Positions 2,244-5,265 of a stretch of 30,030 nucleotides of DNA are shown here, one piece after another. Origin of the DNA: a virus. The stretch's first letter is position 1, and each line of letters opens with the position of its first letter. Position numbers and translations under genes: made by a program. Under the pieces are notes generated by a model, which was not told the origin of the DNA, made no database searches, and saw only the letters and a list, made by a program, of their open reading frames with translations. The DNA lies in the IMG/VR virus record IMGVR_UViG_3300008107_001022, positions 1 through 30,030 of that record. One strand, given 5' to 3'.

Positions 2244-3254
2244 TTAAAATGGTATATCGTTATTTTTCATCTTTTTGCTAAACGAAAGTAATTCTTTTCC
2301 GTTTACTATATCGGGTTCAATTAAAGGAAGTTTAGTTGGAAACTGATTGCTAATTACATTTCGTTGTTCACTTGCGTAATATTTCGTGTAATTGTTGTTT
2401 TCAGCATCCTGAAAATAGTAAGTCAATCTATCTTTGTCAAAGTACATTTTAATACTTCCGACTTCGCCTATTGAACGGGGTTTAATTTTATTGAAGTAAA
2501 TTATTACTTCGTTGCTTAAAATATCCTCACGATGTACGGTTATCATTGATTTGCCCGAGTTGAACCATTCCGAACCACCTTTTAAATCGTAAGGACTTGG
2601 GGCAGGTCGTTTTCCGTTTTCCTTTTCCGTTAACTTAGGGTGAATAATCGTGTGTAAATGCAAGTTGTTTTCTTCTGCTATATGGTTTCTTAATGGTAAA
2701 ATGTATTCTAAATATTGTGCGTAACCTCCGTGTTTTTCGTAATCGTGGCTCATATCCTTCCAACTATCAATCGAAGCTGTGTGTAATCCTTCGTCAGTTT
2801 TGCTTAACTTAATAGCCCATTCCCAAAAATCCTTAGGACTTAATTTTCCTTTTGTGTCGCTACGTGTAACAATATGAAAGTGTCGCATAACCCATTCCAT
2901 AGCGTGTGTTATTTCAATATCCGTAATTACGTTTTCTGCATTTGGATTAAAACTTTTACCCGTCTTTTTGTGAATTAAATCCGCTACAATTTCAACGTTG
3001 TTACCTACGTCAGGAAAGTAAACTAAATGCTTCCACCCGTAAAATTTCGAAGTGTTTACTAAAAGTTCCATAAGAACTTGAGTTTTACCGCTCATAGGGT
3101 AACCCGTCCAGTCGGTGCAATTACCTAAAGTCATCGAGTAATGTTTGTGTAATTGTTCCCAACCTAAAAACATTCCTTTCTTGTGGTAGTTATCACGATG
3201 TTTGTAAATCTTTTCTACTATATCGCCTTGTTCCGTTATCTTAAATCCGTTCAT
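2244..3254 (-). CDS. Replicative helicase-like RecA-fold ATPase (twinkle/DnaB type, no primase domain)
   Basis: Probably unwinds the phage DNA at the fork. The 336-residue protein has Walker A at residues 51-58 (GYPMSGKT), a Walker B strand ending in D163 (TASIDSW), a sensor-like histidine in IIHPKLTE near 203-210, and a C-terminal KIKPRSIGEVG...MYFD segment (about 256-273) as in the helicase half of T7 gp4, twinkle and DnaB. There is no zinc finger or Toprim primase region, so priming must come from the host or another protein. The start ATG overlaps the stop of the initiator-like gene by four bases (ATGA), which suggests coupled translation of initiator and helicase. Confidence 0.85.
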   Translation of the reverse strand: MNGFKITEQGDIVEKIYKHRDNYHKKGMFLGWEQLHKHYSMTLGNCTDWTGYPMSGKTQVLMELLVNTSKFYGWKHLVYFPDVGNNVEIVADLIHKKTGKSFNPNAENVITDIEITHAMEWVMRHFHIVTRSDTKGKLSPKDFWEWAIKLSKTDEGLHTASIDSWKDMSHDYEKHGGYAQYLEYILPLRNHIAEENNLHLHTIIHPKLTEKENGKRPAPSPYDLKGGSEWFNSGKSMITVHREDILSNEVIIYFNKIKPRSIGEVGSIKMYFDKDRLTYYFQDAENNNYTKYYASEQRNVISNQFPTKLPLIEPDIVNGKELLSFSKKMKNNDIPF

Positions 3255-3865
3255 CGTAAATGAGGTAAGTTAAATTTTTCTTCTTGTGGCTTAGGTTGAT
3301 TAACATATTTCTCAAAGTTAGCAGGTCTTAAGAAATGGTCGGGTGTTGCGTTCTTATTTTCTATTACCCATTCATTTTTTACCATATTTGAAAATGCGTA
3401 ACTCCATTCCTGAGTAGTGTATTTATCCAAAAGTTTTTTAAGGTTACTTTCAGTTTGGTTATTTAAGGTTCTAAACTTAGCTTGTGGTTTTTCGTGTTTT
3501 GTAAATTCTAAGTTAAACCAATTCAAAAAACTATTTACACGTTCCTGAAAAGGAACATTAACAAGTTGTTCTTTCTCTTTCTCTTTCTCTTTCTCTTGTA
3601 CCGAAGGGGCTTCAATACCCCCTTGCGTACCCCCTTGCGTAGGGTCTATTAAAGGGGTGTTTGTTTTATCCTCATAACCTTTAACTTGTGCGTCTATTGA
3701 ATGTTTTTGACTAATATAAGCAAACTTTGCTAAGCCCGTTAATTCAACTTCAACTCCTGTAAATTGTCTTTTAAATAAAGCATCGTAAAAAGCTAACCTA
3801 TCTTTATCGTTTAGTTCCGAAGCTACATCATAATAACTTCTATAAAACTTAAATCCCTTTCTCAT
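3251..3865 (-). CDS. Replication initiator / helicase-loader-like protein
   Basis: The 204-residue protein has three parts. Residues 1-60 (KGFKFYRSYYDVASELNDKDRLAFYDALF) match the start of DUF6291-type phage replication proteins. Residues about 66-100 form a low-complexity linker with a TQGGTQGG repeat and an alternating EK tract. Residues 105-195 end in a segment (WVIENKNATPDHFLRPANFEKYVN) like the C-terminal domain of phage replisome organisers and DnaD-like loaders. Position directly before the helicase with an ATGA overlap supports a loader or initiator role. The exact role and origin are not visible. The linker is encoded by short tandem repeats that could vary in length. Confidence 0.75.
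   Translation of the reverse strand: MRKGFKFYRSYYDVASELNDKDRLAFYDALFKRQFTGVEVELTGLAKFAYISQKHSIDAQVKGYEDKTNTPLIDPTQGGTQGGIEAPSVQEKEKEKEKEQLVNVPFQERVNSFLNWFNLEFTKHEKPQAKFRTLNNQTESNLKKLLDKYTTQEWSYAFSNMVKNEWVIENKNATPDHFLRPANFEKYVNQPKPQEEKFNLPHLR
3571..3596. repeat. Hexanucleotide microsatellite coding for the EK linker
   Basis: Four in-frame copies of ttctct/ctttct on the plus strand (GAGAAA on the coding strand) encode the alternating Glu-Lys tract of the initiator-like protein. Changes of one unit keep the frame, so linker length could drift. Confidence 0.8.
3617..3640. repeat. 12-bp tandem repeat in the initiator linker
   Basis: Two exact head-to-tail copies of acccccttgcgt (3617-3628 and 3629-3640) encode TQGG twice in the linker of the initiator-like protein, close to the EK microsatellite. 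Confidence 0.85.
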
Positions 3866-4043
3866 AATACCATTTTACTAAATAAGGCAATAACTTTTCA
3901 ATGTCGTTTCTATTTAAACCAACACCGCCTATATCTTTTCCGTCTTTATAAATTTGAAATAACATTGTAGTTCCGTCAGAAACCAATAAACTTTCTCCAT
4001 TTTCAGGGCTTAATTTGCAATCAATTTTTAACCAATCTTCCAT
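3849..4043 (-). CDS. Hypothetical protein, 64 aa
   Basis: Unrecognised small acidic protein with a beta-rich middle (ESLLVSDGTTMLFQIYKDG) and a helical end (IEKLLPYLVKWYYEKGI). It is the first gene of the replication transcript that begins at the promoter 4160-4192, and is preceded by a hairpin and U-run about 20 bases before its ATG, so its expression may depend on attenuation. Its 3' end overlaps the initiator-like gene by 17 bases. Confidence 0.7.
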   Translation of the reverse strand: MEDWLKIDCKLSPENGESLLVSDGTTMLFQIYKDGKDIGGVGLNRNDIEKLLPYLVKWYYEKGI

Positions 4044-4062: not shown

Positions 4063-4092
4063 AAAAAAAACCCCTTAAATCCTTTGGGGCTT
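4063..4092 (-). terminator. Terminator-like hairpin in the leader of the replication transcript
   Basis: On the minus strand AAGCCCC (4086-4092) pairs with GGGGTTT (4068-4074) around a short loop, followed by a run of eight U (4063-4070). It lies between a promoter (4160-4192) and the first gene (start 4043), not after a gene. Its 5' arm shares bases with an alternative 8-bp stem (4088-4095 with 4142-4149), so the two cannot form together. Confidence 0.75.
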
Positions 4093-4149
4093 CACGTCCA
4101 AATTCATTAAGAGGTTCAATAACGTCTTTAGGTTCTATAGTGTGAAGCC
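4088..4149 (-). promoter_or_regulatory. Putative attenuator: antiterminator stem in the leader
   Basis: GGCTTCAC (4142-4149, minus strand) and GTGAAGCC (4088-4095) form a perfect 8-bp stem close to the predicted 5' end of the leader. Pairing uses the same GAAGCC bases that the terminator stem at 4068-4092 needs. The layout (promoter, stem, overlapping terminator, U8, start codon) is that of a transcription attenuator. The trigger (ligand, protein or translation) is unknown; no leader peptide with ATG is visible. Confidence 0.5.
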
Positions 4150-4159
4150 GAACCGTTTA

Positions 4160-4192
4160 CAAATATACAAACTATTTTTTAATCTTCTTCAA
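4160..4192 (-). promoter_or_regulatory. Promoter of the replication transcript
   Basis: Minus-strand TATATTTG (4160-4167) with TTG at 4190-4192, spacer 22 bases, within the range for Bacteroidota. The predicted start is near 4153-4156, just before the leader hairpins. The upstream box lies in the end of the small ORF 4179-4292. Confidence 0.65.
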
Positions 4193-4602: not shown

Positions 4603-4804
4603 TTTTAATTCTTTTATGTTTTCCTGTTCTTAATATATCGCAGTAATTGATTCCGTGTTTTTGTGCGTACTTTAAAACGTATTCTTCGCAATACTCCAAC
4701 ACGGACGAAGTGTAAAGATATTTATCATTAATACTTACAATGTAATTAACGTATGTACTACCCTTGTACGTCTGAACTATTTTTCTAATCCACCTATATT
4801 TCAT
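4592..4804 (-). CDS. Hypothetical protein, 70 aa
   Basis: Unrecognised small basic protein. The first residues (MKYRWIRKIVQTYKGSTYVN) lead into YIVSINDKYLYTSS and a helical stretch. Its first 18 coding bases lie inside copy 1 of a perfect 54-bp tandem duplication (4786-4894), so a second copy of its start (MKYRWI) lies 54 bases upstream and reads only 11 codons before a stop. The start used here is the one followed by a full frame. Confidence 0.68.
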   Translation of the reverse strand: MKYRWIRKIVQTYKGSTYVNYIVSINDKYLYTSSVLEYCEEYVLKYAQKHGINYCDILRTGKHKRIKNES

Positions 4805-4894
4805 ATTAAATACTTTGTAAGTTCATAAATTTCTCGTGTTAATCCACCTATATTTCATATTAAATACTTTGTAAGTTCATAAATTTCTCGTGTT
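4786..4894. repeat. Perfect 54-bp tandem duplication across a gene junction
   Basis: 4787-4840 and 4841-4894 are identical, head to tail. The unit holds the last 13 codons or so of the HExxH gene, its TGA overlapping an ATG (ATGA), and the first six codons of the next gene. The right copy ends the HExxH gene at 4855; the left copy starts the 70-aa gene at 4804. Between them the duplication leaves an 11-codon mini-ORF starting at 4858. Complete identity implies a recent event, or an assembly or replication slip. Confidence 0.95.
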
Positions 4895-5265
4895 TCTTGT
4901 TCCGCCCAAGATATCATTTCTTCTTCGAGTTCAATATCTTCATTAAACCTATTAAAAGAAACGTGCATTAATTCGTGATAAAGATTACAAATCAAATCCA
5001 ATTCGCTGTTACACCTGTTTAAATTAATAAAACAAAACATTCTATCCGTTAATTTATATTCACCTTCGTGCGGTATATGATTCGCCCATCCGCAAATATA
5101 ACTACCTTCATTCGTGTTTGGGTGCTTTCTGCAATCAGTTAAATTCAATCCGTGCATTTCTTCAACTCCATAATAGGTAAAAATGGAACACGCATCTACA
5201 TTCATTAACAAATCGTAATTATCCCTATTTATCACCAACATAACTCCAAGTTTTATTGTCATCAT
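4855..5265 (-). CDS. HExxH metallopeptidase-like protein
   Basis: A 136-residue protein with a clear zinc-peptidase motif, H97-E98-L-M-H101 in NLYHELMHVSF, followed by an acidic helix (IELEEEMISWAEQE, about 111-124) that could give the third metal ligand. This is the layout of small phage HExxH proteins and of ImmA/IrrE-type peptidases, but there is no companion repressor pair next to it. ATGs at 5265, 5262 and 5241 are all possible; 5241 would cut the overlap with the upstream gene from 41 to 17 bases. Its last codons are inside a 54-bp tandem duplication. Substrate unknown. Confidence 0.7.
   Translation of the reverse strand: MMTIKLGVMLVINRDNYDLLMNVDACSIFTYYGVEEMHGLNLTDCRKHPNTNEGSYICGWANHIPHEGEYKLTDRMFCFINLNRCNSELDLICNLYHELMHVSFNRFNEDIELEEEMISWAEQETREIYELTKYLI

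Follow-up and report, generated by a model that had tools for sequence, protein, structure and literature searches.

A conserved leader RNA with an intrinsic terminator and a predicted kissing helix precedes the replication operon in freshwater phages and cultured Flavobacterium phages

Introduction

In the window, that is, the whole stretch of 30,030 nucleotides analysed here (IMG/VR virus record IMGVR_UViG_3300008107_001022), a promoter on the minus strand is followed by an intrinsic terminator, and a replication operon starts directly behind the terminator. This order raises the question of what the RNA between promoter and operon does. An earlier note had read it as a transcription attenuator or riboswitch, in which a perfect 8-bp stem and a terminator exclude each other through common bases. 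Comparison with relatives shows a conserved RNA with a terminator, a loop-loop helix as judged from covariation, and a fixed place before the operon; this leader probably decides whether the replication genes switch on.

Structure of the leader

Promoter, terminator and operon (ATG at 4043) are present as the earlier note had claimed (Table 1). The -7 element fits the Bacteroidetes promoter consensus TAnnTTTG (PMC7366714), and an element of the TATATTTG type recurs at equal spacing in relatives that were retrieved by protein, independently of the promoter pattern. The 8-bp stem is helix Pb, a perfect complement of 4149-4142 and 4095-4088, which are the sole copies of the 8-mer; neither a second copy nor a complement occurs elsewhere in the 30,030-base record. 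Pb is predicted to be a loop-loop (kissing) helix between the 14-nt loop of Pa (eight paired nucleotides and AYYAUA) and the 10-nt loop of Pd (eight paired nucleotides and two more). Since Pb joins the Pa loop to the Pd loop, it has no base in common with Pc or Pd, and mutual exclusion of stem and terminator through common bases is not borne out. All four helices are compatible on paper, and all of them are conserved.

Table 1. Features of the leader and the operon in the window
Feature	Position	Strand	Remarks
Candidate -33 element TTTG	4193-4190	-	
-7 promoter element TATATTTG	4160..4167	-	fits Bacteroidetes TAnnTTTG
Pa 5' arm GGTTC (5' hairpin)	4150..4154	-	99.4% of cells paired; compensatory changes in 5/5 pairs
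Pb 5' arm GGCTTCAC, inside Pa loop	4142..4149	-	8-bp stem of the earlier note
Junction ACTATA, consensus AYYATA	4136..4141	-	conserved, unpaired
Pa 3' arm GAACC	4131..4135	-	covariation count
Linker TAAAGACGTTATT	4118..4130	-	TTATT nearly invariant across types A and B
Pc 5' arm GAACCTCTTAA, conserved terminator stem	4107..4117	-	98.2% of cells paired; compensatory in 10/11 pairs
Internal loop TGAA facing GGAT (4082-4079)	4103..4106	-	conserved, unpaired
Pd 5' arm TTTGG	4098..4102	-	99.7% of cells paired; 4/4 counted pairs compensatory
Pb 3' arm GTGAAGCC, inside Pd loop	4088..4095	-	covariation count
Pd 3' arm CCAAA	4083..4087	-	covariation count
Pc 3' arm TTAAGGGGTTT	4068..4078	-	covariation count
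U tract of intrinsic terminator	4063..4070	-	T at all eight positions
AT-rich 19-nt spacer before start codon	4044..4062	-	without promoter, without third copy of the kissing sequence
First operon gene, 64 aa	3849..4043	-	no known family
DUF6291 protein, replication-initiator position	3251..3865	-	PF19808, E 1.9e-9
Helicase-like protein, replication module	2244..3254	-	phrog_239 primase/helicase, E 3.9e-13

The window leader folds with an MFE of -22.2 (z = -1.3), and 22 of 200 shuffled sequences fold equally well; its terminator is absent from the list of a generic terminator scan of the window. A descriptor combining hairpin, kissing and terminator ranks the leader at the top of the window, tied in score with one site within a coding region, at 37 versus 33 for the best of 20 shuffled windows. 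Because the energy alone is unremarkable, the question was settled through relatives. In nested MFE folding of the growing transcript, Pb is the best fold at 74-86 nt; once 90 nt are made, the terminator takes this place. Pb can thus form first, and this folding predicts its displacement as the terminator arm emerges, so that a kinetic competition is possible.

Other units and repeats were noticed in the same material. On the minus strand of the window, a second promoter-leader-terminator unit (TATATTTG ... GAACCCTTACTTCGGTAGGGGTTTTTT, 6042-5969) lies behind lysis-type genes, with near-identical counterparts in the relatives L014 (1982-2056) and L126 (4058-4132); in the L055 and L344 versions of this kind of unit, GCTTTCA/TGAAAGC complementarity with the terminator loop is seen. 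A further promoter, hairpin and terminator of unrelated sequence, with an 8-bp loop complementarity GTTCAGGT/ACCTGAAC, occurs on the minus strand of L398 at ~8926. Two perfect 54-bp tandem copies at 4786-4893 of the window lie around the sites where the 4592-4804 gene starts and 4855-5265 ends, and are either a recent duplication or an assembly artefact. The 56-bp repeats at 696-751 and 1386-1441, 86% identical and upstream of genes, are probably repeated promoter regions.

Covariation among relatives

IMG/VR was scanned with the helicase (2244-3254), and 80 of the 268 relatives detected were retained. When blastn was run with the leader alone, the leader was found before the same operon in many of these relatives, with changes that preserve pairing. 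RNAalifold on an alignment of 30 leaders returned the helices Pa, Pc and Pd, with double changes in 18 of 20 pairs; a pattern of conserved unpaired bases matched at least 120 stretches, and model R1 recognised 157 leaders at high score. We aligned 99 distinct members to a model without Pb, so that Pb is independent of the alignment. Over the 28 pairs of the four helices, 98.4% of cells are paired, compared with 68.6% in shuffles and 31-50% when partners are slid by one to three columns. Both sides change in 25 of the 28 pairs, with 770 compensatory cells against 212 in shuffles. Pb by itself is paired in 97.5% of cells (69.8% shuffled, 28-42% slid), with compensatory changes in six of its eight pairs. 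Covariation in related phages, which the earlier note had named as a check, is thereby found in Pb and in the other conserved helices. The terminator pairing that it drew fared otherwise: the letters AAGCCCC (4092-4086) and GGGGTTT (4074-4068) are present, but 64% of cells are paired versus 71-78% when slid 3'-ward, and the terminator pairing that relatives keep is GAACCTCTTAA/TTAAGGGGTTT (Pc), capped by TTTGG/CCAAA (Pd).

Pb is nearly all Watson-Crick, and Pc accepts G-U freely, with about 13% of its cells changed on one side only. Tolerance of G-U in Pc, together with a U tract and a promoter on one strand, points to an element at the RNA level rather than at the DNA level. Linker, junction and internal loop are conserved and unpaired. 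None of the Rfam 15 families matched the window leader at the gathering threshold or the relatives L013, L020 and L026 at E up to 2, and with L317, L319 and L428 (E up to 1) there was only a chance hit elsewhere. From these comparisons, the window leader (4167-4063) is a member of a structured RNA family for which no Rfam entry was found. The family occurs in more than 200 phage contigs as well as in Flavobacterium phages from culture, and matched changes preserve its shape in over a hundred related viruses.

The relatives also bear on attenuation by a leader peptide. No peptide with a normal start had been seen by the earlier note; an ATG frame of 10 codons (4107-4075, MNLDVKPQRI) is present, and its overlap with the terminator speaks for such a mechanism. 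However, when a conserved leader peptide was sought in the 157 relatives, the frame was not kept: its length is 2, 4, 10, 16, 34 or others, and 29 of the 157 have no ATG there. As a conserved mechanism, leader-peptide attenuation is refuted by this variation, and we regard it as extremely improbable.

Position before the replication operon

Downstream of the leader, the window operon encodes DUF6291, helicase-like, NinG and ERF proteins. Across the 157 leaders, the median distance from the matched core to the first downstream ATG frame with at least 30 codons is 20 nt (quartiles 19 and 21; 5th to 95th percentile 12-22). The genes behind the leader are those for initiator, helicase, NinG and ERF proteins, also where the first gene is of another family: in 34 of 98 loci the first gene is itself a member of the initiator cluster, in six it encodes an HNH endonuclease and in most others a small protein, and relatives of the 64-aa first gene of the window stand first in 14. 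Of the 98 loci, 86 have the initiator cluster as such and 84 have the helicase. A gene for a DnaA C-terminal-like helix-turn-helix protein (L044:2576-3010; PF08299 just below the cut-off), the clusters of which occur in 60 of the 98 loci, ends immediately before the leader promoter. Within the DUF6291 gene of the window (~3642-3617, minus strand), tandem copies of ACGCAAGGGGGT are possible replication-origin iterons.

A distance of 18-22 nt to the start codon, which leaves no space for a further promoter, argues for a leader acting in cis. On the other hand, a full unit from promoter to terminator, folded from its first nucleotides and ended by a strong U tract, would also suit a stand-alone small RNA of ~90 nt that acts in trans while the replication genes are transcribed from elsewhere, and phage leaders with short and read-through forms are known (IsrK; PMC4825925). 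Against such an RNA, the spacing persists when the next gene family changes, and no promoter fits between terminator and start codon. Moreover, the 8-mer lacks a second copy or complement in the window record. When 1 kb around type A leaders, the type of the window, was searched for further copies or antisense targets of Pb, the start-site copies of L131, L139 and L165 were the only ones above chance. In the sister leader described below, the start site carries a copy that matches. We therefore regard the small RNA as unlikely, though less so than the other alternatives, and a leader in cis is preferred.

A sister leader with a third copy of the kissing sequence

Before helicases that are 92-94% identical, the type A leader is replaced in some phages by a type B leader of the same topology: a Pa loop of 6-7 nt is fully paired in Pb, the linker has ATTATT, and the complement lies in the terminator loop. 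A pattern scan detected type B in 111 contigs with 58 unique leaders; the Pb complement was required by pattern and parse, and the region behind the terminator was left free. Model R2, with its alignment A4, gave 97.9% pairing over 26 pairs in 65 type B sequences.

In 45 of the 58 type B leaders, an exact copy of the kissing hexamer or heptamer, named A', is located at the ribosome-binding site about 10 nt before the start codon; 13 of the 58 have no 6-nt A' copy. A' matches the kissing sequence of its own leader in these 45 cases, compared with 11.2 expected on permutation among leaders, and it tracks the variants AAGCAG, AGGCAG, GGGCAG, ATGCAG, GAGCAG, GGACAG, GTGCAG and GGTACAG. In L321 and L322, A' matches the terminator loop perfectly at the place where Pb5 retains no more than a G-U. 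Across all rows of A4, including those without A', pairing of A' amounts to 75.6% versus 10-32% when slid. With this third copy at the ribosome-binding site, the terminator loop has two rival partners. Among the 95 type A leaders that lack a third copy, 91 have a T run of at least 6; runs of at most 5 are found in 20 of 47 type B leaders with A' and in 4 of the 95 type A leaders, so that type B with A' has the shorter runs (Mann-Whitney p = 4e-6, relatedness ignored).

Some phages have two leaders, either type A and type B or two of type B, before different genes (L143:1580 and 3949; L193:1920 and 4289; L162:1892 and 21; L092:2803 and 7319; L414:1245 and 4693), and the element thus resembles a portable cassette. 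In L139, L165, L417, L354 and L419, a leader is followed immediately by a gene for an HNH (NUMOD4) or GIY-YIG endonuclease, and the kissing sequence is repeated at the start site of that gene.

The A-B-A' layout of type B resembles seqA-CI-seqC of P4 (PMC4825925), which would favour immunity or copy sensing of the P4 or IsrK kind, in which terminated leaders of one phage act via Pb on the nascent leader of another. In these leaders, however, A and B lie within one RNA and would pair in cis, and tyrosine and serine integrase domains, sought in the whole record, were not found. Among close pairs, Pb changes no faster than Pa, Pc and Pd, and thus gives no sign of diversifying specificity; diversifying selection on Pb was rejected on this ground. 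Immunity is accordingly rated as improbable. The family may also represent one fixed shape, a stabilised terminator or a small RNA, with no switch. A constitutive terminator stabilised by kissing would merely insulate upstream genes from the replication operon or fix the level of read-through, and the conservation and compatibility of all helices agree with it. In that case the promoter ahead of the terminator would be purposeless, and the conserved unpaired linker and junctions as well as the A' copies suggest more than insulation; we rate this possibility as low, between the small RNA and immunity.

Cultured phages and bacterial genomes

Blastn of the window region against named phages gave no match. 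The cultured phages VK58, FCL-2 and snusmum9-1 have the layout of the window with different sequences. The snusmum9-1 leader matches R2 at E 1.6e-4, and about 115 Flavobacterium phage records carry DNA similar to the snusmum leader region. The leader structures of VK58 and FCL-2 were read by eye without model support, R1 scoring 17.3 bits on VK58, the best of its locus. No R1 match above 24.2 bits was obtained in 80 bacterial genome contigs with pattern hits, nor any R1 match in 296 Bacteroidota genomes. Among 397 Flavobacteriaceae genomes, R1 matched a single one, where a 1.9-kb stretch carries the hit ahead of a replication-type gene. Weak R2 hits in five genomes were rejected, the four readable ones being plain terminators.

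Proposed mechanism and known systems

The leader is best read as a kissing-loop cis switch of the replication operon, acting on termination in the window and on termination and start-site masking in type B; we hold this to be rather more probable than all other readings together. The comparison indicates that transcription starts at the Bacteroidetes promoter, with the RNA beginning about at hairpin Pa, and that the fold consists of Pa, a linker that stays single-stranded and the hairpin of the intrinsic terminator (Pc, Pd and the U tract), Pb linking the loops of Pa and Pd. If the fold is left unaltered, RNA polymerase would presumably halt at the U tract; the replication genes would be expressed from read-through transcripts only, and the state of the Pa-Pb-Pd kissing complex would decide on read-through. 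In type B, the start site would be accessible while the terminator loop kisses Pa (ON), and upon loss of the kissing the loop would mask the start site (OFF). Flavobacterium has no Shine-Dalgarno sequences, and its initiation is tuned by structure near the start codon (PMC6847099). This structure-sensitive initiation, together with the two rival partners of the type B terminator loop (the Pa loop or the start site), leads us to infer that kissing means ON. By analogy, kissing would also be ON in the window, where Pb would precede and hinder the terminator arm. The switch might be triggered by a metabolite, by leader RNA in trans, or by a protein of phage or host that binds the conserved linker and junctions. 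The window carries only the terminator platform, with no A', and the translational half is suggested for relatives only.

Of the known systems, the leader would work most like a kissing-loop riboswitch platform, as in the cobalamin riboswitch, and like phage leaders of the P4 and IsrK kind. In the cobalamin riboswitch of the env8 type, a loop-loop helix of a 5' and a 3' hairpin likewise governs access to the start site, although there the kissing loop itself contains the ribosome-binding site, and the kissing state is OFF (PMC10907184). In the leader, an intrinsic terminator forms the 3' hairpin, type B has the ribosome-binding site as a separate third element, and there is neither a cobalamin aptamer nor an Rfam match. 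P4 CI/seqA/seqC and Gifsy-1 IsrK are also phage operon leaders with complementary segments and a terminator; the P4 leader controls replication genes by termination, and IsrK has terminated and read-through forms (PMC4825925). The P4 segments act through a processed trans RNA, whereas Pb connects a pair of loops within a single short RNA, and sequence and host group are unrelated. A third complementary segment of the P4 type is absent from the window and most type A leaders and present in most type B leaders. Terminator attenuators and riboswitches share with the leader the promoter, structured leader, terminator, short spacer and operon, but the leader has neither a conserved leader peptide nor a conserved antiterminator that uses terminator bases. 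Of the reading in the earlier note, the layout of a leader with its own promoter and a terminator before the operon stands, as does the 8-bp stem, whose covariation marks it as functional; the argument from exclusivity is not supported. Phage c4 antisense RNA is a structured phage RNA in an operon leader too, a likeness to the window leader. It is a listed family (RF01695; PMC2864571). Its phages are Proteobacterial ones, and the leader family has no Rfam match.

With confidence a little short of even, the leaders may form an undescribed, phage-specific class of switch, in which the ribosome-binding site and a kissing hairpin on the 5' side share the terminator loop, one loop of six to eight nucleotides sets both termination and translation, and the platforms are exchanged between close relatives. 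RNA control of replication-gene expression in Bacteroidetes phages is almost undescribed in the literature searched. The RNA is compact, its covariation is unusually clean, and it is common in freshwater phages and occurs in cultured Flavobacterium phages, and thus termination, kissing and start-site masking are directly testable. The swap between a terminator-only and a start-site platform in otherwise similar phages offers a natural comparison for the evolution of RNA switches.
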